Below are positions 8,681 to 53,000 of a stretch of DNA of 58,099 nucleotides, piece after piece. Under the pieces are notes generated by a model that did not search any database, was not told where the DNA came from, and saw only the letters and a program-made list of their open reading frames with translations. This stretch comes from Cyanothece sp. BG0011 (GTDB lineage: Bacteria > Cyanobacteriota > Cyanobacteriia > Cyanobacteriales > Microcystaceae), in NCBI RefSeq assembly GCF_003013815.1, contig NZ_PRLH01000005.1, positions 1 to 58,099 on the forward strand, in the 5' to 3' direction. The position numbers were made by a program, and so were the translations under genes. The first letter of the stretch is position 1. Every line of letters starts with the position of its first letter.

Positions 8681-8701
8681 TTTTTTTGAATTAAGGAAAA
8701 C

Positions 8702-28084: not shown

Positions 28085-28098
28085 GAAAATTAGTGAAT

Positions 28099-31621: not shown

Positions 31622-34600
31622 ATGAACTTTGAACAAAACGGCTTAGAAATTGCAATTATCGGTGTTTCGGGAAGATTCCCAGGCAGTAACAGTGTAGAAG
31701 ACTTTTGGCAAAACCTTCTAGATGGTAAAGAATTGACTTCTATCTTTTCTCAAAACAATGGGGAAAAAATCGAAGCCGGATCAATCTTAAAAGATGTGGA
31801 GAAATTTGATGCTTCCTTTTTTGGTTTTAATCCCAGAGAAGCCGAAATGTTAGATCCTCAACATCGTTTTGTATTAGAAACAGCCTGGGAAGCCTTAGAA
31901 ACCGCAGGGTATGATTCCGAAAGAGAAAAACGTCCCATTGGTGTCTTTGCCGGGGTGGGATTAAGTACCTATTGGATCAATAATATTTATGTCCATCCTA
32001 AAAAATTTGATAGTCGAGATGGCCTACAAAATGTGATCAGTTTTGATAAAGATTATGTGCCGACTTTGGTTTCCTATAAATTGAATTTAACAGGGCCCAG
32101 TGTTAGTGTGGGAACCGCTTGTTCGAGTTCATTAGTAGCGGTTCACTTAGCCTGTCAAAGCTTACTCGCAGGAGAATGTGATATAGCCCTAGCCGCAGGG
32201 GTTTCTGTCAAAATACCGCAAAATGAGACTACTTTATGCCCAGGGGAAGTGGTTTCTCCTGAAGGCAAATGTCGGACCTTTGATGCCAATGCAAAAGGCA
32301 TTGTCGGGGGTAATGGGGTGGGCGTTGTCACCCTAAAGCGCCTAGAAGATGCGATCGCTGATCGGGATTGCATCTATGCAGTGATTAAAGGCTCTGCCAT
32401 GAACAATGACGGAGCCATGAAGGTGGGATACACTGCCCCCAGTGAAACGGGACAGGTGAAGGTATTAAAGGCGGCTCAGATGATAGCTGAGGTGGACCCT
32501 GAAACCATTACTTACATTGAAGCACACGGCACAGGAACAGCTTTAGGGGACCCTATCGAAGTGTCTGCCATGACAGAGGCGTTTAGCAGTACCCAGAAGC
32601 AGGGTTATTGTGCCATCGGTTCGGTAAAAACCAACGTGGGGCATTTAGACGCAGCCGCAGGGATAACCGGGTTAATTAAGACAGTTTTAGCAGTGAAACA
32701 TGGGTTATTGCCACCGAGTTTGCATTTTGAACAACCGAACCCTCAAATTGATTTTGAAAATAGTCCTTTTTATGTCAATACAAAGTTAAAAGAATGGCAA
32801 CCTGAAAATATGCCGCGTCGGGCAGGGATTAGTTCTTTTGGTATTGGCGGCACCAATGTTCATGTCATTTTAGAAGAGGCTCCCAACTTACCAGAAAATA
32901 CTAATTCAAGATCCCATCAATTACTGTTATTATCAGCAAAAACTGACAGTGCTTTAGAGACAGCAACTCATAATTTAGGGGACTATTTAAGTCAACATTC
33001 CGATATCAATTTAGCTGACGTTGCTTATACCTTACAAGTGGGTCGAAAACAATTCCCACACCGACGGATGATGGTGGTTGAAAATCTAGATGATGCGGTG
33101 ACTATTTTAACGTCTGATGATGGCAAAAGAATCTTAACCCAAGAAACAAGAGATAGTAATCGTCCTGTTATTTTTATGTTTACGGGACAAGGGTCTCAAT
33201 ATGTCAATATGGCACGAGAGTTATATGAAACTGAAACAGTTTTTAGAGAAACTTGTGATCACTGTTTTGAGTTATTACAATCTCATCTTGATGTTGATTT
33301 AAAAGAGATTATTTATCCTGATTCTGAAGACATAGAAACAGCGATAAAACAATTACAAGAAACGGCGTTAACTCAACCAGCTTTATTTGTGATTGAGTAT
33401 GGTTTAGCTCAATTATGGATGTCTTGGGGGATTATTCCTCAAGCAATGATCGGTCATAGTATTGGGGAATATGTGGCGGCTTGTTTGGCTAATGTCTTCA
33501 GTCTTGAAGATGCTTTAATGTTGGTAGCTAATCGCGGTAAAATGATGCAGCAATTGCCATCTGGTGCGATGTTATCAGTTAATTTGTCTTCTGAAGAAAT
33601 CGAGAGGTTTTTAGATGATAATCTGTCCTTAGCTGCCATTAATAGTCCTAACTTATGTGTTGTTTCTGGTGAGTTAGAGGAGATCAAAAAATTAGAAACT
33701 AAGTTAACAGAAACATCGATTACCTATCGACGTTTACATACATCTCACGCCTTCCATTCTCCTATGATGGAGCCAATAATTAAGCCATTTACAGAATTAG
33801 TTAAAACCGTTTCTTTAAATGCTCCAAGTATTCCTTTTATTTCTAATGTAACCGGAAACTGGATAAAAGAGACAGAAGCAACTGCGCCCATTTATTGGGC
33901 AAGACATTTACGCCAACCTGTTAAGTTTTCTCCTGGAATGACTCAATTAATGCAACAGTCTTCATCTATCTTTTTAGAAGTGGGACCAGGACGAACATTA
34001 ACCACTTTAACCAAACAAATTGATCCCCAAAGAACGATTTTATCTTCCATTCGTCACCCTAAAGATAATCAGTCTGATCTTGCCTTTATTTTAGAAAGAT
34101 TGGGGCAATTATGGTTAACTGGAATTGACATTAATTGGGATAATTTTTATCAAGAAGAAGACCGCGATCGCATTCCTTTACCGACTTATCCCTTTGAACG
34201 TCAAAAATATTGGATCGAACCATCTCAAGCGTCTCAAATAGTTAGTAATACTCAAAAATCAGAGATTAAAGATTGGTTCTATCTTCCCTCTTGGAAGCGA
34301 TCAAAAACCCCCTCAGTTAATTTAAAACAAAGTGATAATTGTTGGTTACTCTTTGTAGATAATTGTGGGTTAGGAAAAGCAATTATTCAACGTCTTCAAA
34401 ATGAGGATAATCAAGACATTATTCAAGTGGAAATTGGGGAAGAATTCAAAGAAATTAATGAAGAGCATTATGTTATTAATCCTAATATTAAAGAGCATTA
34501 TCAAACAGTAGTAGAGAGACTATTTAAAACTAACAAAAATCCGATAATTGCTCATCTATGGACAGTCAATTCTGTTAACTCATTTGACGAATCTCAACAG

Positions 34601-36073
34601 TTAGGATATCAATCAATTATTCATTTGATTCAAACCATTGGCCATCGTAATGTAGAGCATCCTTTATGTCTTAATATTGTTTCTCAGCAACTGCAACAAG
34701 TGACAGGAGAAGAAACAATTTGTCCTGAAAAAGCGACCTTATTGGGGCCTGTTAAAGTTATTCCCCAAGAATATCTTAATCTAACTGCTAGAAGCATTGA
34801 TCTTGTCTTATCTAGCAATAAATTAGAGCAAAAATTGATCGATAATCTCATTGCTGAATTAACCACACCTCTGCAAGATTCTATTATTGCTTATCGGGGT
34901 AATTATCGCTGGATTGAGCATTATGAAGAACTACCTTTAGAAAAGAGAGAAAACCCATCTCGTTTGCGACAAGAAGGGGTTTATTTAATTACTGGAGGAA
35001 CGGGAGGTATTGGTTTAGTTTTAGCTGAATATTTAGCCAAAACAGTCCAAGCAAAATTAGTCTTATTAAGTCGTTCTACTAATTCAAGTAACTTGGAAAA
35101 AATACAAGAATTAGAACAACTGGGTTCCGAAGTTCTCCTCTTACAAGCAGATGTATCTGATGAAACACAAATGAGAGAAGCTTTTAATAAAATTTATCAA
35201 AAATTTGGTTGTCTTCATGGGATTATTCACGCAGCAGGATTATTAGGAAAAGGAGTGATTCAAGAACAAACTAAAACTCTTTCTGACCCCATTTTTGCCC
35301 CGAAAATCAAAGGAACTTTAATCTTAGAAAAACTCTGTCAAACGATTCCCTTAGATTTTCTCTATTTATGGTCATCGGTTAGTACAATTATGGGAGGGTT
35401 TGGACAAGTTGATTATGTAGCAGCTAATACTTTTCTTGACCGATTTGCTAATAGAAACTCTCAGTATTCTACTGTAGCCATTAACTGGGATTTTTGGCAA
35501 GAAGTTGGTTTAGGGGTCACTAATGCGTCAGCGTATCAACATCAGGAAAGTTATCAAGAACATTTACAGCAAGGTATCACTTCCCAGGAAGGAATTGAAG
35601 CATTTAATCGTATTTTAGCTGAAGAGATTCCTCAAATTATTGTTAGTACCCGCAACCTACCAAAAATGATGAGTATTCATCAGACTATTCAAAATCAATT
35701 AACGGCTAAAAATCGAAATAATCATCAAACCAAAAAAAGCTATTCTCGGCCCAACTTAGGTAATGCTTATGTTGCTCCTCGTAATGAAAAAGAACAAATT
35801 ATTGCTGAGATTTGGCAAGATATTTTAGGCACTGAAAAAGTAGGAATTTATGACAACTTCTTTGAATTGGGAGGACATTCTTTATTAGCGACACAAGTGA
35901 CATCTCGTTTACAAGAAGCTTTACAAGTTGAATTGTCAGTCAGAGAACTCTTTGCTTATCCAATGATTGCTGATTTGGCTAATTTTTTAGACAAAACCAA
36001 TTCAAAATCACCTGAAAAGAAACCATCAAAAATCACTGCCGTTTCTCGTGATTCCTATCGTTTGAAAAAATAA
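31622..36073 (+). CDS. Hybrid PKS module KS-AT-KR-T acting after the NRPS module
   Basis: 1483 residues. The KS (about 5-430) is of the type that accepts NRPS intermediates, with VGTACSSSL, VGGNGVGVVTLKRLEDA, IEAHGTGTALGDP and KTNVGHLDAAAG. The AT (about 515-830) has GHSIGEYVAACLA and SHAFHSPMM, predicting malonyl-CoA. The KR (about 1115-1330) has LITGGTGGIGLVLA and the Tyr in GQVDYVAANTFLD; it lacks an LDD motif. The carrier is T-like with ELGGHSLLATQV, as expected before an NRPS C domain. The C-terminus ends SRDSYRLKK, a probable docking tail. It extends the azoline-bound chain by a reduced two-carbon unit, as in yersiniabactin-like pathways. Confidence 0.93.
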   Translation: MNFEQNGLEIAIIGVSGRFPGSNSVEDFWQNLLDGKELTSIFSQNNGEKIEAGSILKDVEKFDASFFGFNPREAEMLDPQHRFVLETAWEALETAGYDSEREKRPIGVFAGVGLSTYWINNIYVHPKKFDSRDGLQNVISFDKDYVPTLVSYKLNLTGPSVSVGTACSSSLVAVHLACQSLLAGECDIALAAGVSVKIPQNETTLCPGEVVSPEGKCRTFDANAKGIVGGNGVGVVTLKRLEDAIADRDCIYAVIKGSAMNNDGAMKVGYTAPSETGQVKVLKAAQMIAEVDPETITYIEAHGTGTALGDPIEVSAMTEAFSSTQKQGYCAIGSVKTNVGHLDAAAGITGLIKTVLAVKHGLLPPSLHFEQPNPQIDFENSPFYVNTKLKEWQPENMPRRAGISSFGIGGTNVHVILEEAPNLPENTNSRSHQLLLLSAKTDSALETATHNLGDYLSQHSDINLADVAYTLQVGRKQFPHRRMMVVENLDDAVTILTSDDGKRILTQETRDSNRPVIFMFTGQGSQYVNMARELYETETVFRETCDHCFELLQSHLDVDLKEIIYPDSEDIETAIKQLQETALTQPALFVIEYGLAQLWMSWGIIPQAMIGHSIGEYVAACLANVFSLEDALMLVANRGKMMQQLPSGAMLSVNLSSEEIERFLDDNLSLAAINSPNLCVVSGELEEIKKLETKLTETSITYRRLHTSHAFHSPMMEPIIKPFTELVKTVSLNAPSIPFISNVTGNWIKETEATAPIYWARHLRQPVKFSPGMTQLMQQSSSIFLEVGPGRTLTTLTKQIDPQRTILSSIRHPKDNQSDLAFILERLGQLWLTGIDINWDNFYQEEDRDRIPLPTYPFERQKYWIEPSQASQIVSNTQKSEIKDWFYLPSWKRSKTPSVNLKQSDNCWLLFVDNCGLGKAIIQRLQNEDNQDIIQVEIGEEFKEINEEHYVINPNIKEHYQTVVERLFKTNKNPIIAHLWTVNSVNSFDESQQLGYQSIIHLIQTIGHRNVEHPLCLNIVSQQLQQVTGEETICPEKATLLGPVKVIPQEYLNLTARSIDLVLSSNKLEQKLIDNLIAELTTPLQDSIIAYRGNYRWIEHYEELPLEKRENPSRLRQEGVYLITGGTGGIGLVLAEYLAKTVQAKLVLLSRSTNSSNLEKIQELEQLGSEVLLLQADVSDETQMREAFNKIYQKFGCLHGIIHAAGLLGKGVIQEQTKTLSDPIFAPKIKGTLILEKLCQTIPLDFLYLWSSVSTIMGGFGQVDYVAANTFLDRFANRNSQYSTVAINWDFWQEVGLGVTNASAYQHQESYQEHLQQGITSQEGIEAFNRILAEEIPQIIVSTRNLPKMMSIHQTIQNQLTAKNRNNHQTKKSYSRPNLGNAYVAPRNEKEQIIAEIWQDILGTEKVGIYDNFFELGGHSLLATQVTSRLQEALQVELSVRELFAYPMIADLANFLDKTNSKSPEKKPSKITAVSRDSYRLKK

Positions 36074-36127: not shown

Positions 36128-39100
36128 ATGAACCATCAACAAGAAATCATTTCAATTAATAATTATCTCGACAAATTTCATTCAGAAGATATTTTTATTT
36201 TCCCAACCTCTTCGGGTCAAGCAAGACTTTGCTTTTTAGCAGAATTAGAACCTGATAGTTTTGCCTATAATGAACAGTTTATCATTCAACTAAAAGGGAA
36301 ACTTGATATTTCTAAGTTAAAACAAAGCTTTAATGAAATTGTCCGTCGTCACGAAATTTTACGCACCCTTTTTACAACTGAAGAGGGTCAACCTTTTCAA
36401 GTGATTGTACCGAATTTAACTTTAAAATTGCCGGTCATTGATTTAACTGATCTTGTAGCAACAGAACAAGAGCGTGTTATTAAAAAAACCGCTATTAATG
36501 AAGTAAAAACCCCCTTTAATTTAACAGAAATTCCTCTGATTCGACTAAAATTATTACAGCTTAATGAAGAAGAAAATTTATTAATTATTACCTCACATCA
36601 TATTATTGCCGATGGTTGGTCAGGTAAAATTTTAATGGAAGAACTAGCCGTATTATATGAGGCTTTTTGTGCTGAAAAATCGTCTCCCCTTCCTCCTTTA
36701 GAAATTCAATACGCAGATTTTGCGCTGTGGCAAAATAATTATATTCAAGAAGATGCTATTATTGATCAACTTAATTACTGGAAAGATCAATTAGAGGGAA
36801 GTCCGAGCTTATTAAAACTGCCAACTGATTATTCTCGTCCTCCTGTACAAACCTATCAAGGGAGTTGTCAACACTTTCAGTTAACTCAAGAATTAACCGA
36901 AAAATTACAGCATCTCAGCAAAAACAATGGCACAACATTATTCATGTCATTACTAACAGGTTGGTCAATTTTACTCTCAAAATATAGTCAAGAAACCGAC
37001 CTGGTTATTGGTTCTCCTATTGCTAATCGAAATCGAACCGAAATAGAATCATTAATTGGATTTTTTGTCAATAGTTTAGCGTTAAGAATCGATTTATCCA
37101 ATAATCCCACTGTTAGCGAATTATTACAGCGAGTCAAACAAGTTTGTTTCGATGCTTATGATAATCAAGATGTCCCTTTTGAAAAATTAGTGGAAACCTT
37201 AAAACCTGAAAGAAATTTGAGCAACCATCCCATTTATCAGGTGATGTTTATTTTACAAAATGCTAATAATCAAAAGTTTAAAATACCAGGATTAGACCTT
37301 AAAATTAGGGAAAAAGAAAATATTGTCGCTAAACTCGATCTGACCCTAGAAATGCAAGAAACCCAAGAGGGAATAAGGGGAAAAATAGAATATCGAAGTG
37401 ACTTATTTAAACCGGCAACCATTGAACGGATGATCGGTCATTTTCAAAACATATTAGTAGAAATTTCGACCAATCCGACACAACCGATTAATAATTTATG
37501 CCTATTAACCTCCTTTGAAAAAGAACAAATATTAAACCAATGGAATCATACTCAAACTGATTATGCAAAAGATAAAGGTATTCATCAGTTATTTGAAGAA
37601 CAAGTTGTAAAGACCCCTGATGCAGTAGCCCTGGAATTTCAAGGGCAACAATTAACCTATGAAAAACTGAATCAACAGGCCAATCAACTAGCCCATTATT
37701 TGCGTTCTTTGGGGGTTGACTCAGGGGTTCTCGTCGGCATCTGTTTTGAACCTTCTATGGAGCTTTTGGTGAGTGTCCTAGGGGTTCTCAAAGCCAATGG
37801 GATCTATGTACCCTTAGATCCCAACTATCCCCAAGAACGACTAACGTATATGTTGGAAGATGCTAAGATGCAGATTTTGTTGACTCAAGAGCCATTAATT
37901 GCCAAAATTCCCCCTCAACAAGCTCAGATCGTTTGTCTGGATAGGGATAAGCAGGCTATTGCTCAACAAAGCAGCGAAAACTTAGCCAGTGATGCCACCT
38001 TAGAAGACCTAGTTTATGTTATTTATACCTCTGGCTCAACCGGAAGACCGAAAGGGGTTCTCGGTAAGATGCGGGGGCTGATTAATCGTTTACATTGGAT
38101 GTGGGAGAGTCTCCCCTTTGCGGATGATGAGGTTTGTGTGCAGAAAACCTCGATTAATTTTGTCGATCATGTTGCTGAAATCTTTTTGCCCCTTTTACAA
38201 GGCATTCCTCTGATCATCGTTCCCAAGGAGAGCCGGGGAGATGTTTTGGGGTTAATGAACTTATTAAAAGAACACAACGTAACGAGACTTGTTTTGGTTC
38301 CCTCCTTACTCAAAGCAATGATCGATAGTGCGCCTCAAGAACTTTCGGACCTGCGATCGCTTAAATATTTCTTTTGTAGTGGTGAAGCGTTGCCCCTAAG
38401 TTTAGCCGAAGAATTTCACCAGACACTGAGCGCGGCGAGATTGTTTAATCTTTACGGTTCCTCAGAAGTGTCCGCCGATGTTACCTATTTTGAGGTGAAT
38501 TTTTGGGAAACCGGTCAAAGAATCCTGCAATATTTCAAACCCGAAGTGGTTCGGGGTGCATCTGAAGATGGGGAGCAGAAACCCTTTACCCGGCCCGGTG
38601 TCAGTTCGGATATGCTGGCGAAACAGTTTCAACGCAGTGAGTTGCCTTTATATCCGGTCACCGTTGATGACTATTATGAGCAATTTAGCCAAGAAGTGCT
38701 ACCCTACGTCATTGATACCAGTTCCCCCACCTTCATCGGACATATGACCTCAGCTTTGCCGGATTTTCTCCACGATATGAGCAAGCTGATCTCACAGTTG
38801 AATCAAAATCTGGTCAAAATTGAGACATCCAAGTCGTTGTTATTCGTAGAAAGAGAGGCGATCGCCATGTTGCATCGTCTGGTTTATAACTTCTCAGAGG
38901 ACTTTTATCAAGAAAATATTCAACAAACCAATCGTAATTTGGGCCTTGTCACCACTGGCGGCACAACGGCCAACATCAGCGCCCTATTATGCGCCCGCAA
39001 TGCTGGATTATTAAATACAGAAAATCCTTGGGAGTTATCAAGAGACAGTCTTTATCAGGTTCTCAGTAAAAAAGGCTATGAAGACATTGTAATTATTGGC

Positions 39101-42100
39101 TCTCGTCTCATGCACTACTCCCTCAATAAAGCTGCTTCAATGTTGGGTTTAGGAACCAATAATATTGTCTTGATTGATAGTAATAGTGACGGTAAATTAA
39201 ACCTTAACCAAGTTGAAGCAAAAATCGAAGAATGTCGGAACAATAGATTATATATTTTGGCTTTGGTGGGTATTGCCGGAACAACCGAAACCGGGGAAAT
39301 TGATCCCTTATCAGAATTAGGAGAGATTGCCCAAAAATATAACATTCATTTTCATGTAGATGGTGCTTGGGGCGGCCCGACAGTCTTTTCTGACAAGCAT
39401 AAAGGAAAATTAAAAGGGATCGAAAAAGCCGATTCTGTCACCATTTGCGGTCATAAACAACTCTACTTACCCCAAGGTATTAGTGTTTGTTTGTTTAAAG
39501 ATCCCCAACTCTTAAACTTTGCTGCAACCACCGCCCGTTATCAGGCTCAGAGAAACACCTACGATGTCGGCAGATTCACCATTGAAGGGTCGCGATCGGC
39601 ACTGTCTTTATGTTTGCATGGGGCCCTTCATATTATTGGTAAAAAGGGATATGAGATCCTCATTAATAATGGCATCGAAAAAGCCCAATATTTCGCTCAA
39701 CTCATTGACCGTTTAGAGCCATTGGAACTGATTCGACAACCGGTTTTGAATATTGTTAATTATCGATATATTCCCGATGATTTAAGAGAAAAAGTTCAGC
39801 AAAAAGCTTTGAGTGATGATGAGATTCAACGCATTAATCAACTCAATCAACAGATACAAAAAGAACAATTTGAACAAGGAAGAACCTTTGTTTCAAAAAC
39901 AACCTTGCTTGACCCTGCTTATGGTCAAGAAATTGTGGTCTTTCGCACCGTTTTATCGAATCCTAATACAACAGCATCGGATTTACATCGGGTACTTGAG
40001 GATCAATTGAGAATTGCTTATCAAATTGAAGCAAGAAATCAAGGAAACCTTAACGTTAATCTTTTAGACAACCTGGTTATGCCAGAGATGACGGCAATAG
40101 CTCAAGAAGGGATAAGTTTGAGGTTTACCGAAGATCCCAACGCAGATTTAGAAGAATATCTCAAAAAAAATACCATTCCCATCGGCAAACCCATTGCCAA
40201 CACACAAATTTATATCCTCGACAACAATGGCAATCTTCTACCCCCAGGGTTGACAGGGGAGCTATATGTGGGAGGTGATGGACTGGCCCAGGGGTATTTG
40301 AATCGACCGGAGTTAACCCAGGATAAGTTTATTCCTAACCCTTTTAGTCAAGACAAGACCGAAAAATTGTATCGAATGGGGGATCTCGCTCGTTGGTTGC
40401 CCAATGGCAATATTGAATTTATCGGCCGTGTCGATCGCCAGGTGAAAATTCGCGGTTTCCGCATCGAACTCGGAGAAATTGAATCGGTACTCAATAGCCA
40501 TCCTCAAGTTAAAGAAACGGTGGTGATAGCAACGGAACAACTTCCTAACGACAAACGCTTAGTTGCCTATGTCATCAGTGAAGATGATTCCTTGAATCTT
40601 GAGCAACTCAGGGACTTTCTCAAAGAAAAGTTACCCGACTATATGATTCCTACGGCCTGGGTTCCCTTGCAGGAACTACCCCTTAATCCTAATGGGAAAG
40701 TCGATCGCAAAGCGTTACCCCTTCCGGACCAGGGAAAGGCCATGGCCGAAACCCCCTATATTGCCCCTCGTACCCCTGTAGAGGAAATCATCGTCAATAT
40801 TTGGCAACAAGTGCTAAATGTCGAACAAGTGGGCATTGAGGATAACTTTTTTGAATTGGGGGGACATTCTCTAATGGCCACTAAAGTTATCTCTAAGATC
40901 CGTCAAAGTTTATCCGTAGAATTGCCGTTACGTTCTCTATTTGAACACCCAACCGTGGTTAAATTAGCTGAACAATTGAACAAAGCTGACACTAATATAA
41001 ATATTCCGCCCATTCGTTCTGTCAGCAGAGAGGGAGAATTACCCTTATCATTTGCACAACAAAGATTATGGTTTCTTGAACAATTAGAAGAGACTAATGC
41101 TGCCTATAATCTTTCAGGGGCATTACGGTTAAAAGGGGTTCTCAATATTGAGGCATTATCAAACAGTATTAATGCTATTATTGCCCGTCATGAAGTCTTA
41201 AGAACCAATTTTAAGGCTCAAGCAGGGAAACCTGTCCAAATTATTAAAAATGTTTCCTCAGACCAATATCTTGAGATTAAGATTTTAGAAATTGACCCAG
41301 ACACTGAGATTAACCAATTAATTAATCAAGAAGCAACAAACCCCTTTGATTTAAGTCAAGATCATCTCATTCGAGTGAGTTTAATTCCCTTAGAAAAGGA
41401 GGAAAACATTTTACTCATCACCCTGCACCATATCATCTCAGATGGTTGGTCCCTTGATATCTTTATCAAAGAATTATCAATTTTTTATCAAAGTTATTGT
41501 CAAGGGGAAACCCCCTCTCTACCGACCTTAGACATTCAATATGCAGATTTTGCGGTGTGGCAACATGATTATTTACAAGGGGAGATTATAGAGAATCAAA
41601 TCAATTACTGGAAACATCAATTAAGGGGAATTCCTCCCTTATTAGAACTCCCGACGGATTATCCTCGTCCGCCAAAACAAACTTTTAATGGTGGTTGTCA
41701 AACGTTTCAATTACATCAGGAATTAACTGAGAAATTAAAAGAATTAAGTCAAGAAAATGAGGCAACTTTATTCATGACATTATTAAGCACATGGGGTTTA
41801 TTATTGTCAAAATATAGTCGTCAAGAAGATATTGTTATCGGTTCTCCTATTGCTAATCGTAATCGCGCTGAAATAGAGCCATTAATTGGTTTTTTCGTTA
41901 ACACATTAGTGATGAGAATCGATTTTTCTAATGACTTAAACTTTCATCAATTAATTGAACAAGTTAAACAGGTATGTTTAGAAGCTTATCAATATCAAGA
42001 TATTCCTTTTGAAAAGCTAGTGGAGGAATTGCAACCCGAAAGAAATTTAAGTCATACCCCTCTATTTCAGGTAATGTTTATCTTACAAAATGCTAATAAT

Positions 42101-45100
42101 CAAACGTTAGAATTATCAGGATTAGACCTAGACATTTTAGACAGAGAACATAGGGTTGCTAAATTTGATCTGACTTTATCCATGAAAGAAACTCAAGGAG
42201 AATTAGCTGGAGAAATAGAATATAATACAGACTTATTTGAAGCTTCAACCATTGAGCGGATGGTCGTTCATTTCCAGGAATTATTAACCGCTATAGCGAC
42301 AAATCCATGCCACTCCCTTCAGAAAATATCATTAGTAACGGAAAAAGAGAAGAAACAGTTATTAATTGATTGGAATAAAACCAAAGCAAACTATCCAAAA
42401 AATAAATGTCTTCATCAATTATTTGAAGAGCAAGTCTTAAACACATCTGATGCAGTAGCTATTGAATTTCAAGGGGAACAATTAACCTATTTTAAACTCA
42501 ATGAAAAAGCCAATCAATTAGCCTATTACTTGCAACAATCAGGAGTTAAACCTAACGATTTAGTGGCCATTTGTATGGAACGTTCTATTGAAATGGTCAT
42601 CGGACTTTTAGCCATTCTCAAAGTAGGAGGAACCTACATTCCTATTGACCCGGCTTATCCTTCTGAACGCATTAATTATATTTTAGAACATAGTCAAGTT
42701 GAGGTTATTTTAACTCAGTCAAAAGAAGGCAAGAGGCAAGAGGCAAAAGGCAAGAGTAAAAAATATACGATCATCGATATTAATACTATATTCTCCCTCC
42801 CCACACCCGACACCCTACACCCTACACCCTACACCCCACCCCCTCACCTAACCCCCCAAGACTTAGCCTACATCATCTACACCTCCGGGTCCACAGGAAA
42901 ACCCAAAGGGGTCGAAATATCCCACCAAGCTATTGTTAACTTTCTCTGGTCCATGGCCCAACAACCAGGGATAAACCCTCACGACGTTTTACTATCAGTA
43001 ACCACCTTATCTTTTGACATCGCAGGGTTAGAAATATTCTTACCTTTAATAACTGGTGCAAAAGTCGTCTTAGTCAGTGGAGAAACTGCTATGGATGGAG
43101 TTGCCTTAAGTGAGAAAATAGACCAATGTCACGCTAGTATGATGCAGGCAACGCCGGCCACTTGGCAGATGTTAATAGATGCAGGATGGCAAGGCAAACA
43201 AGACTTAAAAATACTCTGTGGTGGGGAAGCTTTGAGTCAAACTTTAGCCAAAGACTTACTCATAAAAAGTGGTGAACTCTGGAATATGTATGGGCCAACA
43301 GAGACCACCGTATGGTCAATGATTCAAAAAATAGAATCAGCAGAAAACATCACCATTGGTCGTCCGATTAATAATACTCAAATTTATATTTTAGATAACC
43401 ATTTACAACCCGTACCTGTAGGCGTACCAGGAGACCTTTATATCGGCGGAGATGGGTTAGCAAGGGGTTATGTGAACCGTCCAGACTTAACAGAAGAAAG
43501 ATTTATCAATAGTCCCTTTTTTCAAGGTGGGAGCAGGGAGCAGGGAGTTAGGGAGAAAATCTATAAAACAGGAGACTTAGCCAAATATTTACCCAGTGGC
43601 AAAGTAGAATATATTGGCAGAAGTGACTATCAAGTAAAAATTAGAGGTTTTAGAATCGAACTAGGGGAAATAGAAAGCCAGTTAAATCAACATTCAGCAC
43701 TCAAGAATGCTGTCGTCATTGCTAAAAAAGAAGCATCAGGAATTAACCGTTTAGTGGCTTATTATATTCCCAAAAAAGAAGAGAGTGTCACTAATGAAAA
43801 GTTAAGGAGTTATTTAAAGACAAAGTTACCCGATTATATGATTCCTTCGGCTTTTATTTCTTTAGATGAATTTCCTTTAACCCCGAATGGAAAAATCAAC
43901 CGTAAGGCTTTACCTGAACTTGACGAATTTGTGTTAAGTGATAATGATAACTTTGTCCCTCCTCAAACAGAAATTCAACAAGCGATCGCTGCTATTTGGT
44001 CAGAGGTACTCGGTTTAAATTCAGTAAGTATTAATAGTAACTTTTTTGAATTAGGAGGACATTCTTTATTAGCGACTCAAGTGATTTCAAAAATCCAAGA
44101 GATGTTGAAAGTAGAAGTTCCCATTAAGCATTTATTTGAAAACCCAACCATTGAAACTTTTAGCAGCGCAATAGAAACCGCTTCTCAAGATAAACAAGCG
44201 GTTGAATTATTACCTATTGAAGTCAGCAATCGTTCTTCATTCCTTCCCCTTTCTTTCTCTCAACAAAGACTTTGGTTTCTTGAACAGCTAGAAGGCTCAA
44301 ACTCAGCCTATACCATGGCAGGAGCGTTACAGTTAAGCGGTTCTTTGAATTTAGAAGCATTAGAAAATAGTGTTAATGCTATTATTAATCGTCACGAAAT
44401 TTTAAGAACAAGGTTTACAACTCAAGAAGGACAACCCATTCAAGTTATTAATAATGACCTTTCAGAATCATCTTTTAAAATTAAAGTTTTATCAGTCAAT
44501 TCTGATGATAATCTTCAAGAATTGATTGATAAAGAAGCAACAAAACCATTTGAGTTAAGTCAAGATAGTTTAATTAGAGTCAGCCTAATTCCTCTAGAAA
44601 AAGAAGAAAATATCTTAGTGATTGCCATGCACCATATTGTCTCTGATGCTTGGTCAATTGGGCTATTTATTCAAGAACTATCGACTTATTATCAGAGCTA
44701 TTGTCAAGGAGAACAACTATCTTTACCTCCCCTAAAAATTCAATACGCTGACTATGCTATCTGGCAAAGAAAATGGTTAAAAACAGAGTCATTTGAGCAA
44801 CAATTAAATTACTGGAAAAATCAATTAAAAGATGCCCCCACTTGCCTAAATTTCCCCCTTGATAACCCTCGTTCTCAACAACAAAATTATCAAGGAAATA
44901 GCTCAGAGTTTCAATTATCTTCTCAGTTGACAGAGCAACTCAAAACCTTGAGTCAAAGGGAAGGATCAACTTTATTTATGACCTTATTAACTGCTTTCAA
45001 TAGTTTGTTATATTCTTACAGTGAAGATGAGGATATTTGTCTCGGTTCTCCCATTGCCAATCGGCAAAGACAAGAAACTCAAAACCTAATTGGATTCTTT

Positions 45101-45634
45101 GTGAACACCTTAGTATTACGTACAAATTGTTCAGGAAATCCTACGTTTAGAGAACTTTTGCAAAGGGTTAAAACCATGGCTATTGATGCTTATTCCCATC
45201 AAGAAGTACCGTTTGAGAAGATAGTTGAAGCATTAAATATTGACCGAAATTTAAGCTATAATCCCCTATTTCAAGTCTGGTTTGTTATGGATGAGGATCT
45301 AAGTTCTAATTTAGTTTTACAGGATTTAAGCTGGAAAAGAAGAGACATTAATTACCGCTCAGTTCGTCATGATTTAAGTTTAAGATTGTCAGAAAAAGCA
45401 GGAGTAATGACTGGTTATTTTGAATATAAAACCAGCTTATTTAATCAAGATACGATCATTACTATGCAAGAAGATTTTAAACTAATCTTGACTGCTTTAG
45501 TTAATAATCCTGATCAACATTTAACTGATATCAAAGCTATGATTGACCAGAAAAGACAGGAAAGAAAAGCCCAAAAAGAACAAGCTTTATTGTCTAATAT
45601 GCGTCAAAAACTTAAACGTCGCAAACGTCAATAA
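36128..45634 (+). CDS. NRPS C-A(with inserted PLP decarboxylase)-T-C-A-T-C
   Basis: About 3168 residues from ATG 36128 (an upstream TTG is in frame). Order: C1 with HHIIADGWS (about 157); the first half of A1 to NLYGSSEVSADVTYFEV; a 550-residue PanP-like decarboxylase (about 791-1350); the second half of A1 (IGKPIANTQIYILD, YRMGDLARWLP); T1 GGHSLMATK; C2 HHIISDGWS; A2; T2 GGHSLLATQ; a terminal C3 with HHIVSDAWS and no following A domain. A1 residues read V-D-A-V-F-S-L-A-D, close to the beta-Ala code VDWVISLADK. A2 reads D-I-L-Q-L-G-M-V-W, the Gly pattern. The terminal C3 should condense onto the Asp loaded by the protein encoded at 46736. The basic C-terminus (MRQKLKRRKRQ) may be a docking tail. 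Confidence 0.93.
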   Translation: MNHQQEIISINNYLDKFHSEDIFIFPTSSGQARLCFLAELEPDSFAYNEQFIIQLKGKLDISKLKQSFNEIVRRHEILRTLFTTEEGQPFQVIVPNLTLKLPVIDLTDLVATEQERVIKKTAINEVKTPFNLTEIPLIRLKLLQLNEEENLLIITSHHIIADGWSGKILMEELAVLYEAFCAEKSSPLPPLEIQYADFALWQNNYIQEDAIIDQLNYWKDQLEGSPSLLKLPTDYSRPPVQTYQGSCQHFQLTQELTEKLQHLSKNNGTTLFMSLLTGWSILLSKYSQETDLVIGSPIANRNRTEIESLIGFFVNSLALRIDLSNNPTVSELLQRVKQVCFDAYDNQDVPFEKLVETLKPERNLSNHPIYQVMFILQNANNQKFKIPGLDLKIREKENIVAKLDLTLEMQETQEGIRGKIEYRSDLFKPATIERMIGHFQNILVEISTNPTQPINNLCLLTSFEKEQILNQWNHTQTDYAKDKGIHQLFEEQVVKTPDAVALEFQGQQLTYEKLNQQANQLAHYLRSLGVDSGVLVGICFEPSMELLVSVLGVLKANGIYVPLDPNYPQERLTYMLEDAKMQILLTQEPLIAKIPPQQAQIVCLDRDKQAIAQQSSENLASDATLEDLVYVIYTSGSTGRPKGVLGKMRGLINRLHWMWESLPFADDEVCVQKTSINFVDHVAEIFLPLLQGIPLIIVPKESRGDVLGLMNLLKEHNVTRLVLVPSLLKAMIDSAPQELSDLRSLKYFFCSGEALPLSLAEEFHQTLSAARLFNLYGSSEVSADVTYFEVNFWETGQRILQYFKPEVVRGASEDGEQKPFTRPGVSSDMLAKQFQRSELPLYPVTVDDYYEQFSQEVLPYVIDTSSPTFIGHMTSALPDFLHDMSKLISQLNQNLVKIETSKSLLFVEREAIAMLHRLVYNFSEDFYQENIQQTNRNLGLVTTGGTTANISALLCARNAGLLNTENPWELSRDSLYQVLSKKGYEDIVIIGSRLMHYSLNKAASMLGLGTNNIVLIDSNSDGKLNLNQVEAKIEECRNNRLYILALVGIAGTTETGEIDPLSELGEIAQKYNIHFHVDGAWGGPTVFSDKHKGKLKGIEKADSVTICGHKQLYLPQGISVCLFKDPQLLNFAATTARYQAQRNTYDVGRFTIEGSRSALSLCLHGALHIIGKKGYEILINNGIEKAQYFAQLIDRLEPLELIRQPVLNIVNYRYIPDDLREKVQQKALSDDEIQRINQLNQQIQKEQFEQGRTFVSKTTLLDPAYGQEIVVFRTVLSNPNTTASDLHRVLEDQLRIAYQIEARNQGNLNVNLLDNLVMPEMTAIAQEGISLRFTEDPNADLEEYLKKNTIPIGKPIANTQIYILDNNGNLLPPGLTGELYVGGDGLAQGYLNRPELTQDKFIPNPFSQDKTEKLYRMGDLARWLPNGNIEFIGRVDRQVKIRGFRIELGEIESVLNSHPQVKETVVIATEQLPNDKRLVAYVISEDDSLNLEQLRDFLKEKLPDYMIPTAWVPLQELPLNPNGKVDRKALPLPDQGKAMAETPYIAPRTPVEEIIVNIWQQVLNVEQVGIEDNFFELGGHSLMATKVISKIRQSLSVELPLRSLFEHPTVVKLAEQLNKADTNINIPPIRSVSREGELPLSFAQQRLWFLEQLEETNAAYNLSGALRLKGVLNIEALSNSINAIIARHEVLRTNFKAQAGKPVQIIKNVSSDQYLEIKILEIDPDTEINQLINQEATNPFDLSQDHLIRVSLIPLEKEENILLITLHHIISDGWSLDIFIKELSIFYQSYCQGETPSLPTLDIQYADFAVWQHDYLQGEIIENQINYWKHQLRGIPPLLELPTDYPRPPKQTFNGGCQTFQLHQELTEKLKELSQENEATLFMTLLSTWGLLLSKYSRQEDIVIGSPIANRNRAEIEPLIGFFVNTLVMRIDFSNDLNFHQLIEQVKQVCLEAYQYQDIPFEKLVEELQPERNLSHTPLFQVMFILQNANNQTLELSGLDLDILDREHRVAKFDLTLSMKETQGELAGEIEYNTDLFEASTIERMVVHFQELLTAIATNPCHSLQKISLVTEKEKKQLLIDWNKTKANYPKNKCLHQLFEEQVLNTSDAVAIEFQGEQLTYFKLNEKANQLAYYLQQSGVKPNDLVAICMERSIEMVIGLLAILKVGGTYIPIDPAYPSERINYILEHSQVEVILTQSKEGKRQEAKGKSKKYTIIDINTIFSLPTPDTLHPTPYTPPPHLTPQDLAYIIYTSGSTGKPKGVEISHQAIVNFLWSMAQQPGINPHDVLLSVTTLSFDIAGLEIFLPLITGAKVVLVSGETAMDGVALSEKIDQCHASMMQATPATWQMLIDAGWQGKQDLKILCGGEALSQTLAKDLLIKSGELWNMYGPTETTVWSMIQKIESAENITIGRPINNTQIYILDNHLQPVPVGVPGDLYIGGDGLARGYVNRPDLTEERFINSPFFQGGSREQGVREKIYKTGDLAKYLPSGKVEYIGRSDYQVKIRGFRIELGEIESQLNQHSALKNAVVIAKKEASGINRLVAYYIPKKEESVTNEKLRSYLKTKLPDYMIPSAFISLDEFPLTPNGKINRKALPELDEFVLSDNDNFVPPQTEIQQAIAAIWSEVLGLNSVSINSNFFELGGHSLLATQVISKIQEMLKVEVPIKHLFENPTIETFSSAIETASQDKQAVELLPIEVSNRSSFLPLSFSQQRLWFLEQLEGSNSAYTMAGALQLSGSLNLEALENSVNAIINRHEILRTRFTTQEGQPIQVINNDLSESSFKIKVLSVNSDDNLQELIDKEATKPFELSQDSLIRVSLIPLEKEENILVIAMHHIVSDAWSIGLFIQELSTYYQSYCQGEQLSLPPLKIQYADYAIWQRKWLKTESFEQQLNYWKNQLKDAPTCLNFPLDNPRSQQQNYQGNSSEFQLSSQLTEQLKTLSQREGSTLFMTLLTAFNSLLYSYSEDEDICLGSPIANRQRQETQNLIGFFVNTLVLRTNCSGNPTFRELLQRVKTMAIDAYSHQEVPFEKIVEALNIDRNLSYNPLFQVWFVMDEDLSSNLVLQDLSWKRRDINYRSVRHDLSLRLSEKAGVMTGYFEYKTSLFNQDTIITMQEDFKLILTALVNNPDQHLTDIKAMIDQKRQERKAQKEQALLSNMRQKLKRRKRQ
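38499..40180 (+). other. PanP-like PLP aspartate 1-decarboxylase domain embedded in an A domain
   Basis: This in-frame segment of about 550 residues interrupts the adenylation domain between motif A5 (YGSSEVSADVTYFEV) and the IGKPIANTQIY segment before A6. It is a group II PLP decarboxylase: SSPTFIGHMTSALPDFL and NQNLVKIETSK match the PLP-type aspartate decarboxylase PanP as I recall it. Also present are TTGGTTANISAL (phosphate contacts), MHYSLNKAA (cofactor-stacking His), HFHVDGAWGGP (Asp to the pyridine nitrogen) and the Schiff-base Lys in TICGHKQLYLP (codon 39455-39457). All expected catalytic residues seem present, so it is probably active: Asp to beta-alanine and CO2. Confidence 0.88.
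42727..42853 (+). repeat. GGCAAGA and CACCCTA repeats in the A2-A3 loop
   Basis: After ILTQSKEG come ggcaaga heptamers (42727-42756), and after a short spacer, caccctacaccctacaccc repeats (42797-42853), all in frame before the A3 motif. The position equals the insertions at 30019 and 51841 in other A domains. Confidence 0.75.
43529..43556 (+). repeat. GGGAGCA heptamer repeat before motif A7
   Basis: gggagcagggagcagggag encodes GGSREQGVRE between the LTEERF segment and KTGDLAKYL. The same insertion is in the A domains at 49258 and 52678. Confidence 0.75.
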
Positions 45635-45677: not shown

Positions 45678-46676
45678 ATGATGACACCTAAAACTTTTAA
45701 AACCACTAAACGGCGCTCTATTAATCTATCGAATGCTCAAGTAACGAAACAATATTTATTAGATAATTGTGCCATTCCTTTAGTCATAGAAACACAACAA
45801 GAGCGAATTGATCTGATATCTTGGAGTCTTAATCATAGGGATTTGATTGATCACCATTTACAGCAAGAGGGTGCTATTTTATTCCGAGGATTTGAGATAG
45901 GAAATGTGGAGAAGTTTGAAAAATTTATGACTTCTGTGTTTGGTCATCTCCTTGATTATTCTTACGGTTCTACTCCCAGAAGTAAGCTAGACGGTAAAGT
46001 TTATACTTCTACAGAATATCCTTCTAATCAATCAATTTCCTTACATAATGAGATGTCTTATACATCAAATTACCCTTTAAAAATTGCTTTTTATTGTCTT
46101 AAAGCAGCCGAACAAGGGGGAGCCACTCCTATTGCTAATAGTCGAAAAATATTTAATAAAATTAATCCTAAAATTCGGGATAAGTTTCAGAATAAAGGGG
46201 TAATGTATGTTAGAAACTATAGCGATAAACTAGACTTACCTTGGCAAAAAGTCTTTCAAACTGATGATAAAGCTAAAGTTGAAGCCTATTGTAAACAAGC
46301 AGGGATTGACTTTCAATGGAGAGGAAATAACCTCAGAACCTGCGAAGTTTGTCAAGCTGTTGTTAAGCATCCTCACACACAAGAAATGGTTTGGTTTAAT
46401 CAAGCTCATTTATTCCATGTTTCTAGTTTACAACCAGAGGTTAAAGATAACCTTTTAGCTGTTTTAAAAGAGGAAGAATTACCCCGTAATACCTATTATG
46501 GCGATGGTAAACCGATAGAAGATTCAGTATTAGCAGAAATTCGTCATCTTTATGAACAAGAAGCAGTTTGCTTTCCTTGGCAGTCAGGGGATTTATTACT
46601 ACTTGATAATTTATTGACCGCTCACGGCCGCCAGCCTTTTTCTGGTTCCCGGCAAGTGGTTGTGGCAATGGGATAA
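45678..46676 (+). CDS. TauD/SyrP-type Fe(II)/2-oxoglutarate dioxygenase (putative Asp beta-hydroxylase)
   Basis: 332 residues of the TauD/TfdA superfamily, SyrP-like branch. The iron ligands are His123 and Glu125 in SLHNEMSYTS and the distal His316 in LTAHGRQPFSGSRQVVVAMG, with Arg for 2-oxoglutarate in the same stretch. It also has AILFRGFEIG near the N-terminus and GGATPIANSRKI. Members that use HxE and sit in NRPS clusters hydroxylate the beta carbon of carrier-bound aspartate. It lies 44 bases after an NRPS ending in a lone C domain and 60 bases before an interface-A(Asp)-T protein, the arrangement known for interface-associated Asp beta-hydroxylases of siderophore clusters. Its product would be beta-hydroxy-Asp, a bidentate iron ligand. 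Confidence 0.9.
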   Translation: MMTPKTFKTTKRRSINLSNAQVTKQYLLDNCAIPLVIETQQERIDLISWSLNHRDLIDHHLQQEGAILFRGFEIGNVEKFEKFMTSVFGHLLDYSYGSTPRSKLDGKVYTSTEYPSNQSISLHNEMSYTSNYPLKIAFYCLKAAEQGGATPIANSRKIFNKINPKIRDKFQNKGVMYVRNYSDKLDLPWQKVFQTDDKAKVEAYCKQAGIDFQWRGNNLRTCEVCQAVVKHPHTQEMVWFNQAHLFHVSSLQPEVKDNLLAVLKEEELPRNTYYGDGKPIEDSVLAEIRHLYEQEAVCFPWQSGDLLLLDNLLTAHGRQPFSGSRQVVVAMG

Positions 46677-49700: not shown

Positions 49701-50041
49701 CTCCTAACACTGTTATAGAAGAGATTTTATGCCATATTTGGCAAGATTTACTCTCTTTAGAAAAAGTAGGAGTCAATCACAGCTTTTTTGACCTTGGAGG
49801 ACATTCCTTATTAGCCACGCAACTCATTGCCCGTATTCGTCAAACCTTCCGCGCTGACATAACCCTAAGAGACTTGTTTGATGACCCCACCATCACCCAT
49901 TTAAGCCAAACCCTAGTATCCCGTGAACCCAAACCTGGCCAAACCGAAAAGATTGCCCAAACCCTGAAAAAGTTAAACAGTTTATCCCCCGAAGAAAAAC
50001 AAAGACTGCTGGCACAAAAACGACAAGGAGGACAACCATAA
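46736..50041 (+). CDS. NRPS interface-A(Asp)-T
   Basis: 1101 residues. Residues about 15-430 have a condensation fold start (LSPQQERIWLLQGLESS, VMERHEILRTIF), but the catalytic HHxxxDG is replaced by SALCGDS (about 147), so it cannot condense and matches the interface class that recruits Asp beta-hydroxylases. The A domain (about 460-960) has YTSGSTGKPKGVGV and binding residues D-L-T-K-I-G-H-I-G, nine of ten with Lys517 assumed compared with the Asp code DLTKVGHIGK. The T domain has DLGGHSLLATQL. A G/A-rich heptamer repeat is inserted at 49258. GAGGAG lies before the ATG, and the stop overlaps the next start (TAATG), implying translational coupling. Peptide bond formation here must come from the C domain ending the 36128 protein. 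Confidence 0.93.
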   Translation: MTEIETSLQPDMNEGFRLSPQQERIWLLQGLESSYQYQVNGSLTIEGNLDIERLKMAIYQVMERHEILRTIFPCLPGMSIPFQQIITTPKLDWQEEDLREIDSKKGVKSVNIVQTEFNQVLFNFDKFPPIKFKLVRVLDDKFILLIRLSALCGDSQSFNLLVKEIIDAYKGQSLADVEIQYADIAEWFHELLEDEEGAIARSFWREKGEQYEGLSSLVIEQYNQQCLDFTAQLERIELSSELWDKIKQLAESCDISLENFFYSSFATFIYKITGKPSFFLGRKTQGRSYEELEQGIGLFAKYLPDQVELKETSTFLEILELNQLNDSENKKWQDYFTWNTFQEKEREINQSILSYSFEWDESIPEKRVNNVSFSLIDKISVTEPFKLKLFIQQQTDNLNLFLAYDKNKFDSKTIKMLCNQYKILLQNLIVKSNLPIDKLNILSLEDKEKILNQFNQTTQEYSFQNLIYQQFEQQAKQTPERLAIVDENQSLTYQQLNQKSNQLAHYLIKKGVKPDHIVPLFIERSLDFIIGMLAILKAGGAYLPLDATLPQEALKLRLEDAKASLILTQEHLKQNLANLPVKILNLDQEEDNIAQESTDNPTIPVAPEHLVYVIYTSGSTGKPKGVGVEHKQLCNYVYGIQQKLDFPPESRFANVSSFAADLGNTAIFPPLSTGGCVHIISQDRIMDAERFAEYFDRHPIDCLKIVPSHLSTLLIAAKHPEKILPKKRLILGGEGLNWQLIQKIKQYAPHCPIYNHYGPTETTIGVLTYPVTSEKPVSDLNTVPLGTPLPNTQIYILDRYLQPVPIGVAGELYIGGDNLSRGYLNQLELTEERFIENPFFKAGSREQGVGRKYLSQKLYKTGDLARYLPNGTIEFLGRKDRQIKIRGFRIELGEVEAALRQHPQIQETVVTPWEASPGNPGLVAYLISVGEEKPENQTLKHFLAQKLPDFMIPNHFLWLDTLPLTPNGKINHKQLPAPNRNSPELNYVAPNTVIEEILCHIWQDLLSLEKVGVNHSFFDLGGHSLLATQLIARIRQTFRADITLRDLFDDPTITHLSQTLVSREPKPGQTEKIAQTLKKLNSLSPEEKQRLLAQKRQGGQP
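49258..49288 (+). repeat. GGGAGCA heptamer repeat in the Asp A domain
   Basis: gcagggagcagggagcagggag encodes KAGSREQGVGRK before KTGDLARYL, at the place of the insertions at 43529 and 52678. Confidence 0.7.
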
Positions 50042-53000
50042 TGCGTGCAGAAGACTTAGAATTATTTGAATATCTCCTCGAAGACGAAGGGGTAGACACT
50101 GCCTCACCTCAAGGTATTCCCCCACGAGACAACTCTGATGAGATACCCTTATCATCAGCGCAAACGAGACTCTGGTTTCTCACCCAGTTGGACCCAGACA
50201 GTTGCGCTTATAACTTGCCTGGGGGATTAAAATTAACAGGAAAACTGAATTTTCAGGCTCTTGAGGACAGTATTCATGAGATTGTCCAGCGTCATGAAGT
50301 TTTACGAACCAGTTTCACCGAAATTGAAGGAGAACCCCAGGCCCGAGTGATTCCTGAGGTCACCCTTACCATTCCTATTATCGACTTGCGGGGACAGTCG
50401 CCAGAAGCAACCGCCACCGAAGTGGAACGCATCAGCCGAGAAGAGGAAGAAACCCCCTTTAACTTGGCTAAAAGTCCTTTAATTCGCTTAAAACTGTTGC
50501 GTTTAACTGAAAATGAATACATACTACTCCTTAACCTCCATCATATTGTGTCCGATGCTTGGTCAAAAGGGGTTTTTATCGAAGAACTAAGACAACTTTA
50601 TCACGCCTTTTCCCAGGGAAAACCGTCCCCTCTGCCCGTTTTACCCATTCAATATGCCGATTTCGCCCACTGGCAACAAAAACGTCTCCAAGGGGAAGCC
50701 TTAGCCCATCAACTGGACTATTGGAAACAGCAACTCGCCCATATTACTCCCTTATCCTTGCCCACGGATAAACCCCGTCCCCTCACCTCAACCTTTAACG
50801 GGGCCAGTCAATGTTTTAGGTTGCCTTCTGAGGTAACACAACAGTTAAAAGCTTTAGCAAAGCAAGAGGATGCCACCCTATTTATGGTCTTGTTAAGTGC
50901 ATTTTTTGTCTTACTGTATCGCTACACTCAGCAAGAAGATATCTGTGTCGGTTCTCCCATTGCTAACCGCAGTCACCCAGAAATTGAGCCATTAATTGGT
51001 TTTTTCTTAAATACCTTAGTTTTTCGTGCCGACTTATCAGAAAATCCGAGTTTTTTAGAGGTATTAAATCGAGTTAAAACAGTTTGTTTAGATGCTTATG
51101 ACTATCAAGACTTTCCGTTTGAAAAATTAGTCGAACAATTACAACCCGAACGTCATTTAAATCATTCTCCTTTGTTTCAAGTGCTGTTTACTTTACAGAA
51201 AAATACGGCAAAAGAAAACCTTTCCTTACCTGGGTTATCCGTAGCGGTGATAGAGAAGGAATGGAAAACAGCAAAATTTGATTTATCCTTGAACATGGAA
51301 GAGACAGAGGAAGGGTTATGGGGGATGTTTGAGTATAAAACAGACCTCTTTGAAGCCGAAACCATCCAAAGAATGGTAGGACATTTTTTAACCCTATTAA
51401 ATAATATTCTTTTCCATCCTCGTCAGAGTATTCAAACCTTAGATTTATTAACAGAATTAGAAAAACAGAAACTGTTAATTAAATGGAATAAAACCGACGC
51501 TAATTATCCTAAAAATGATTGTTTACACCAACTATTTGAAAGACAAGTTAACCAAACCCCCCACACCATTGCTGTTGAATTTGACAACGAAAAATTAACT
51601 TATTCTCAACTCAATGAAAAAGCCAATCAATTAGCCTATTATCTCCAAGTATCAGGGGTTAAACCTAACGATTTAGTGGCCATTTGTATGGAACGTTCTC
51701 TTGAAATGGTCATCGGACTTTTAGCCATTCTCAAAGTAGGAGGAACCTACATTCCTCTTGACCCGGCTTATCCTTCTGAACGTATTAATTATATTTTAGA
51801 ACATAGTCAAGTTGAGGTTATTTTAACTCAGTCAAAAGAAGGCAACCCCCCCTACCCCCCCTTGGTAAGGGGGGAAGGGCAACCCCCCCTACCCCCCCTT
51901 AGTAAGGGGGGAGAGGCAAGAGGCAAGAGTCGAACTATCATAGAAGTTGATACCCTAACTCTAAACTCCGAACTCCGAACCCCGAACCCCGAACCCCGGA
52001 CACCCCAAGACTTAGCCTACATTATCTACACCTCTGGGTCCACAGGAAAACCCAAAGGGGTGGAAATATCCCACCAAGCTATTGTTAACTTTCTCTGGTC
52101 CATGGCCCAACAACCAGGGATAAACCCTCACGATGTTTTACTATCAGTAACCACCTTATCTTTTGACATCGCAGGGTTAGAAATATTCTTACCTTTAATA
52201 ACTGGTGCAAAAGTCGTCTTAGTCAGTGGAGAAACTGCTATGGATGGAGTTGCCTTAAGTGAGAAAATAGACCAATGTCACGCCAGTATCATGCAGGCAA
52301 CGCCGGCCACTTGGCAGATGTTAATAGATGCAGGATGGAAAGGAAAGAAAGACTTAAAAATACTCTGTGGTGGGGAAGCTTTGAGTCAAACTTTAGCCAA
52401 AGACTTACTCATAAAAAGTGGTGAACTGTGGAATATGTATGGGCCAACAGAGACCACCGTATGGTCAATGATTCAAAAAATAGAATCAGCAGACAACATC
52501 ACCATTGGTCGTCCGATTAATAATACTCAAATATATATCCTAGATAACCATTTACAACCCGTACCTGTCGGGGTACCAGGAGACCTTTATATCGGCGGAG
52601 ATGGGTTAGCAAGGGGTTATGTGAACCGCCCAGACTTAACGGAAGAAAGATTTATCAATAGTCCCTTTTTTCAAGGTGGGAGCAGGGAGCAGGGAGTTAG
52701 GGAGAAAATTTATAAAACAGGAGACTTAGCCAAATATTTACCCAGTGGCAAAGTAGAATATATCGGCAGAAGTGACTATCAAGTAAAAATCAGAGGTTTT
52801 AGAATAGAACTAGGGGAAATAGAAAGCCAGTTAAATCAACATTCAGCACTCAAGAATGCTGTGGTCATTGCTAAAAAAGAAGCATCAGGAATTAATCGTT
52901 TAGTGGCTTATTATATTCCTAAACAACCAGACAATATTACCAGGGAAGAGTTAAGGAGTTATTTAAAGAACAAATTACCTGACTATATGATACCTTCGGC

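Follow-up and report, generated by a model that had tools for sequence, protein, structure and literature searches.

The module and its surroundings

The window, by which is meant the whole stretch of 58,099 nucleotides of Cyanothece sp. BG0011 analysed here, contains an assembly line of PKS and NRPS genes in which one NRPS gene carries a PLP decarboxylase nested within its first adenylation (A) domain. The features of the window, with the evidence for them in brackets, are the following:

3789-6305: TonB-dependent receptor with an AMIN domain, upstream
7910-13326, minus strand: genes for a thioesterase, an RND pump (AcrB family) and HlyD-type membrane fusion proteins, adjoining the cluster
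13684-15738: FAAL-ACP gene, start of the assembly line
after the FAAL-ACP gene and before 28093: three PKS genes
28093-31590: NRPS gene
31622-36073, plus strand: fourth PKS gene, KS-AT-KR-ACP, immediately upstream of the putative beta-alanine module (domain scan)
36128-45634, plus strand: NRPS gene C-A(PLP decarboxylase)-PCP-C-A-PCP-C (open frame, Pfam)
36176-37498, plus strand: first condensation domain, limits approximate, which takes over the chain of the upstream PKS (PF00668)
37505-38497, plus strand: interrupted A domain, N-terminal half, up to FEV (residue 793) and holding all nine code residues (Pfam, motifs, 1amu sequence match)
38498-40168, plus strand: inserted segment, residues 794-1350 (557 aa), between A5 and A6 (alignment with CrpD and embedded relatives)
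38513-40036, plus strand: PanP-like PLP decarboxylase proper, about residues 799-1306 (Pfam, NCBIfam, motifs, alignment)
39455-39457, plus strand: codon of the catalytic Lys1113
40037-40168, plus strand: C-terminal linker of the insert (1307-1350), fast-evolving, a homologue of which survives in CrpD together with the last decarboxylase helix
40169-40726, plus strand: interrupted A domain, C-terminal half, motifs A6-A10 (Pfam, motifs, model)
40787-40975, plus strand: carrier protein of the putative beta-alanine module (PF00550 at 1557-1619)
41030-45634, plus strand: C-A-PCP-C, A code DILQLGMVW (Pfam, code columns)
45678-46676, plus strand: TauD-family dioxygenase gene, directly downstream, after the terminal C domain (PF02668)
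50041-55767: another NRPS with a C-TauD end, the second TauD domain of the window

The open frame of the central gene starts at 36119 (TTG) or 36128 (ATG) and runs to 45634, encoding 3171 aa from the TTG with no internal stop; residues are numbered here from that TTG, which places them three higher than in the first-pass annotation of this DNA. Pfam recognises three Condensation, three AMP-binding (the first A domain being split in two) and two PP-binding stretches in the product, giving the order C-A(PLP)-PCP-C-A-PCP-C. The code of the second A domain, DILQLGMVW, is taken to specify glycine. Taken together, the TauD gene, the C-TauD end and the TonB receptor suggest that the cluster makes a beta-hydroxy-aspartate lipopeptide siderophore, presumably of the cyanochelin-like type, and the genes at 7910-13326 are possibly its editing and export genes.

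The nested decarboxylase and its host A domain

The first A domain retains its motifs on both sides of the insert: A3 (637) and A5, NLYGSSE (777), stand before it, and A6, GELYVGG, A7, YRMGDL (1418), and A10, NGKVDR (1525), after it, while the junctions read FEV (to 793) and NTIPIG (from 1351). The motif order, the Pfam matches and the alignment of the junctions thus confirm the first-pass observation of a PLP decarboxylase of about 550 residues between A5 and A6, the alignment putting the insert at 557 aa. Counted from the Glu of A5 to the IGKP that precedes A6, the window protein has 571 residues and CrpD 75 (pattern IGxP), whereas the same distance is 16-23 residues in the 44 measured of 56 uninterrupted A domains. 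Nine of the remaining 12 gave no pattern match (seven are short by eye, and two, L099 and L124, end after A5) and three had no A5 motif that could be found. With an auxiliary enzyme between A motifs and motifs kept on either side, the protein belongs with the interrupted A domains, although its a5-a6 site differs from the usual, not strictly defining, a8-a9 or a2-a3.

The nine-residue code reads V-D-A-V-F-S-L-A-D in the code columns, with Val235 and Asp236, in agreement with the earlier reading; judged by the ranges of its match to 1AMU, which stops at residue 785 (chain position 329), the sequence is in register with those columns. Such a code is of the beta-alanine type (Val-Asp at 235/236, kind VDxVxSLAD), a specificity that we assume from known examples, as we do Gly for DILQLGLIW and Asn for DLTKIGHVG in the same columns elsewhere in the set.

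As regards the fold, a structure prediction of the fusion, proposed in the first-pass annotation, was successful for the A domain and not for the insert. In the AlphaFold model of the fusion (pLDDT 64) the A halves are good (68-97 for the block of the N-terminal half) and the insert is poor, as it is when modelled alone (pLDDT 50), so that no active-site distance could be obtained. Foldseek on the poor insert model listed group II decarboxylases at a query TM of only 0.30-0.35. Both A halves of the fused model together match 4d4i across the insert (TMt 0.87), and since the model fits solved A domains in this way, the A fold is very likely kept despite the insertion.

The family of the insert is better defined by its sequence, which matches 43 distinct solved chains, mostly group II decarboxylases. 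PF00282 (Pyridoxal_deC) covers residues 843-1217 (7.4e-46; 157 bits against a gathering score of 27; profile 13-374 of 375). The best NCBIfam match is TIGR03799 (PanP), with 522 bits over profile positions 53-522 of 522, followed by diaminobutyrate decarboxylase with 146 bits. The PF00282 and PanP searches that the first-pass annotation had suggested therefore bear out its term "PanP-like", although the equivalog cut-off of 606 bits is not reached. The seven other embedded inserts described below score 510-534 bits, with no other family above E 1e-60; the cut-off is exceeded by none of the eight embedded inserts and by three of the four freestanding proteins scored, and the embedded inserts lack roughly the first 37-53 positions of the profile.

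In an alignment of 41 sequences (8 embedded, 31 freestanding and 2 close freestanding ones), 111 positions are invariant, including H999, D1081, K1113, Y1141, R1276 and the GGTxAN loop. The Lys, His, Asp and phosphate loop noticed at first sight are therefore conserved throughout, and the residue set of a group II PLP decarboxylase (K1113, H999, D1081, R1276) is present in 41 of 41. We take Lys1113 to be the catalytic residue that binds PLP, His999 to stack on it, Asp1081 to contact the pyridine nitrogen and Arg1276, which aligns with Arg567 of GAD67, to bind the carboxylate.

The embedded clade is 44-48% identical to freestanding PanP, and there are 29 positions, fixed in all eight embedded sequences, at which 95% or more of the 31 freestanding sequences differ, an example being an Asp to Cys difference at 1110, near Lys1113. 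Given these differences, the scores below the cut-off and the absent N-terminal profile positions, the substrate of the embedded enzyme could have shifted from that of PanP. Decarboxylation of another acid (3-methylaspartate, glutamate or 2,4-diaminobutyrate), with the A domain taking the matching product, would accommodate this divergence, and CrpD illustrates that an A pocket of this kind can change to an alpha-methyl analogue. Nevertheless, we regard such a substrate as improbable: Val235 leaves less room for a methyl group than the Gly235 of CrpD, the pocket residues suit a small beta-amino acid and the best family other than PanP lies at 146 bits against 522.

Selection on the insert was estimated by comparison with the unicellular cyanobacterium SU3, a near relative. 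The decarboxylase has a dN/dS ratio of 0.069, the C-terminal half of the A domain one of 0.066 and the N-terminal half one of 0.228; the C, PCP and second A domains lie at 0.13-0.20 and the linker (taken as 1307-1353) at 0.332. The insert is under strong purifying selection, and the contrast between 0.332 and 0.069 indicates a linker that is free to vary beside a constrained enzyme. An inactive relic or structural spacer might have been imagined from the apparent loss of the insert in CrpD and from L083, whose cluster is fragmented and apparently decaying; it was rejected as very improbable on account of the catalytic residues kept in all eight embedded copies and of a dN/dS lower than in every other domain measured except the C-terminal A half.

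Distribution of the embedded and freestanding forms

The search for other A domains with the same insertion, also envisaged in the first-pass annotation, yielded seven further cyanobacterial loci, from other assemblies, with this insert at this junction (eight with the window); phyla beyond cyanobacteria were covered by the close-relative scan only. The embedded form is found in:

L031: Mastigocoleus testarum BC008
L032: Acaryochloris MAG
L033: Plectonema LEGE 06105
L034: Richelia MAG
L035: Hyella patelloides
L037: unicellular cyanobacterium SU3
L083: genome G202

An assembly or chimera artefact, named at the outset as what would undo the observation, was rejected, its chance being negligible when different assemblies share the same junctions at eight loci and the frames are continuous through the module in seven of the eight. 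The junction alignment was made with the loci other than L083, whose frame breaks after the insert; in this G202 cluster (L083, 1-20000) the genes are broken into many short frames. The A domain code is VDAVFSLAD in seven of the eight embedded proteins and VDAVFSFAD in one. The neighbouring modules vary among these clusters, and for this reason the module appears to have moved between assembly lines.

Near the embedded clade, two further A domains were noticed (L099:1054-3942, also L151, and L124:1141-3939; codes IDWVVSLAD and VDWVVSLAD). They break off right after A5, what comes next being a carrier-like domain that lacks the customary Ser, and the frame contains no A6-A10 half beyond this point. 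A5-A6 may be a recurrent break point of A domains.

Freestanding PanP genes were compared at 34 places (E 1e-130 or better), to the exclusion of the embedded clade and of the two freestanding copies close to it; all 34 were examined with up to 20 kb of DNA and nine with wider flanks, A domains being counted with HMMs. At 21 of these trans loci the adjacent upstream module has an A domain with the code VDWxxSLAD, 2.9-3.1 kb from the Lys motif, and at 24 such a domain is present somewhere in the DNA examined; when the type is widened to VDW..S.A(D/N) the count rises to 32, the exceptions being L138 (a 4.8-kb contig) and L144. The directly upstream module is not of the VDW..AD type at 13 of the 34, which speaks against the function proposed below, and at several loci the adjacent upstream code is DLFNNALTY or DILQLGMIW, with only the ..AN type further off. 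A domains with the code VDW(V/I)IS(L/F)AN, frequent in PanP clusters, form a clade of their own (6 rows, 100/100), as exemplified by L031:18859-20421, L033:11587-13149, L091 and others. Relatives of the TauD proteins of the window occur at 13 of the 34 trans loci and at two of the seven other embedded loci, within the DNA examined.

At the level of genomes, 30 of the 38 with a PanP-type match (1e-130) also have a host-like A half (1e-95), versus 6 of the 350 without PanP; without the four embedded cases, in which the link is trivial, the figure is 26 of 34. These counts, from 388 genomes with up to five candidates scored in each, ignore kinship. Among the six genomes with a host-like A half and no PanP are G289, where the code is different, and the genome of CrpD. 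The linkage of PanP to such A domains supports the beta-alanine meaning of the VDxVxSLAD code, and is as expected if free beta-alanine is made.

The second line of comparison comes from the cryptophycin cluster. A plasmid search found no record covering 80% of the query and led to the Nostoc sp. ATCC 53789 locus L038, whose genes we take to be crpD and crpG of the cryptophycin synthetase, CrpD presumably activating alpha-methyl-beta-alanine. The first A domain of CrpD (one strain, one assembly) has no decarboxylase and a code, GDAVFSLAD, that differs from VDAVFSLAD by Gly235 alone. It forms one clade with the embedded A domains (9 rows, 100/100), the support in the tree for a position inside or beside them being low (54/42). 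Between FEV and NTIPIG lies an interval of 61 residues, KLRIANQIEAKSKEKLDALKN...EALEEYLKR, that corresponds to the linker of the embedded proteins and the final helix of their decarboxylase (66% over 74 columns with L034, 63% over 71 with L031, 45% with the window).

The simplest reading of this scar is that the CrpD lineage lost the decarboxylase by internal deletion, which suggests that the cryptophycin enzyme once carried an embedded decarboxylase. A linker older than the insert would also account for the interval, but is disfavoured because part of the scar is homologous to the final helix of freestanding PanPs, which have a similar helix at their end; recombination of the C-terminal A half from an embedded relative is possible. 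The cluster holds a gene annotated as panD, which we take to be crpG, and the Val235Gly change fits the extra methyl group of the CrpD substrate. CrpG decarboxylates 3-methylaspartate, supplying the amino acid of CrpD (PMC7459860). The first-pass view that the host code is close to the beta-alanine code is accordingly backed on two sides, by the PanP/VDW linkage and by the code and scar of CrpD.

Finally, the genus of the window also contains freestanding forms. G002 (L036/L086) and G007 (L085) have a copy of the decarboxylase without A-domain parts, 78-80% identical and scoring 519 and 519 bits against TIGR03799 for L086 and L085, below 606; the copies at L085:2029-3726 and L086:1652-3259 adjoin a glycerol-3-phosphate dehydrogenase gene. 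In a midpoint-rooted tree with 18 of the 31 freestanding sequences, they nest within the embedded clade as sister of the window and SU3 (100/100), and on account of this nesting the decarboxylase probably left the synthetase to become a freestanding gene in the genus.

PanD was detected in G002, and no match was found in G007, which has a free copy; this absence alone proves little, as G038-G040 gave no match either. PanD is over the cut-off in seven of the eight genomes with the embedded form, so that CoA synthesis need not depend on the embedded enzyme in those seven. The exception is the genome of the window itself, where TIGR00223 finds panD (G000:C136:18942-19288, L153) only as two overlapping fragments that lie in different frames, whereas SU3 (G006) has one intact match; the split may reflect a sequencing error or a genuine loss.

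Proposed function and known systems

The reading that we prefer, with a probability of roughly 0.75, is that the insert decarboxylates free L-aspartate to beta-alanine, which the surrounding A domain activates for its own carrier. The group II enzyme of the PanP type would split off the alpha-carboxylate of the free amino acid; the host A domain, its fold kept, would adenylate the beta-alanine formed and load it on its own carrier protein, and one module would both make and load its own building block. The sequence supports an intact decarboxylase with its catalytic residues, a pocket of the beta-amino-acid type, and an A domain and carrier that are both intact, all under purifying selection; that aspartate is the substrate, that it is free rather than carrier-bound and that proximity brings a gain is what we infer beyond this. 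In fold-type-I decarboxylases the active site is built by two subunits (PMC3870968), and for this reason the synthetase would be expected to dimerise through the insert.

The A domain might instead load aspartate by its beta-carboxylate, decarboxylation then taking place on the carrier to give beta-Ala-S-PCP. The carboxyl of beta-alanine being the side-chain carboxyl of aspartate, this chemistry needs no rearrangement, and it follows the logic of the known tailoring insertions: methyltransferase insertions work on the carrier-bound residue (PMC11355689) and Milano et al. speculate on a carrier-bound alpha-decarboxylation for the domain family (PMC3870968). We consider it unlikely, given that VDAVFSLAD has no basic residue for holding a free alpha-carboxylate, that CrpD, with a code identical bar one residue, is served by an enzyme acting on 3-methylaspartate (PMC7459860), and that the freestanding genes for PanP show a link to VDW-type A domains.

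Returning to decarboxylation of free aspartate, a wider history can be put forward tentatively, and it is rather doubtful that all of its parts hold together: the beta-alanine of the insert would pass straight to the A pocket; the embedded form would have arisen once and spread among clusters; the decarboxylase would have been lost in the ancestor of CrpD, a PanD-type enzyme in trans and one change of the pocket taking its place; and it would have been freed in the host genus, maybe replacing PanD in CoA synthesis.

The idea of a substrate-making insert is testable, since the family includes a cis form (window), a trans form (PanP next to a VDW module) and a scar form (CrpD) to set side by side. 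Moreover, the family offers a history for the well-known anticancer pathway of cryptophycin, a genomic marker by which orphan clusters with beta-alanine residues could be recognised, and a natural building part for modules engineered to bring their own precursor.

Jamaicamide, to which JamL belongs, contains beta-alanine. The A-PLP-A architecture itself is not new, as JamL (Lyngbya majuscula; Q6E7J8, Table 2), in print since 2013, has a Pyridoxal_deC embedded in an NRPS A domain, in the order KS-AT-ADH-KR-CP-C-HxxPF-A-PLP4-A-CP, with a precise function that the authors describe as not clarified (Milano et al. 2013, PMC3870968). A search for JamL matched none of 20 genomes of one family, a set not shown to include JamL itself. 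The literature covered, which did not extend to the original jamaicamide and cryptophycin papers, gave no second report of such an insert, and none of an embedded family, a shared code, the CrpD scar or an apparently liberated copy in the genus of the host.

Among known systems, JamL is the closest in layout: as in the window, the decarboxylase is embedded in an A domain and a PKS module precedes it, the comparison being one of published domain orders (PMC3870968), with insertion point, code and tree position outside it. The A domains interrupted by methyltransferases, oxidases or ketoreductases share with the window the presence of an auxiliary enzyme within the A domain. Unlike the a5-a6 insert described here, theirs lie at a8-a9 or a2-a3 and are listed in two reviews as tailoring enzymes that modify the bound residue (PMC8949500, PMC11355689), whereas the present one would make the substrate. 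PanP, freestanding in cyanobacterial NRPS clusters, resembles the insert in family (TIGR03799), catalytic residues and genomic link to beta-alanine-type A domains, and differs from it in being encoded by separate genes and only 44-48% identical. Finally, the CrpD/CrpG pair has an A domain of the same clade, with the code GDAVFSLAD and the linker and last helix kept, but no decarboxylase within it, its amino acid coming instead from a separate PanD-type enzyme that acts on 3-methylaspartate (PMC7459860).
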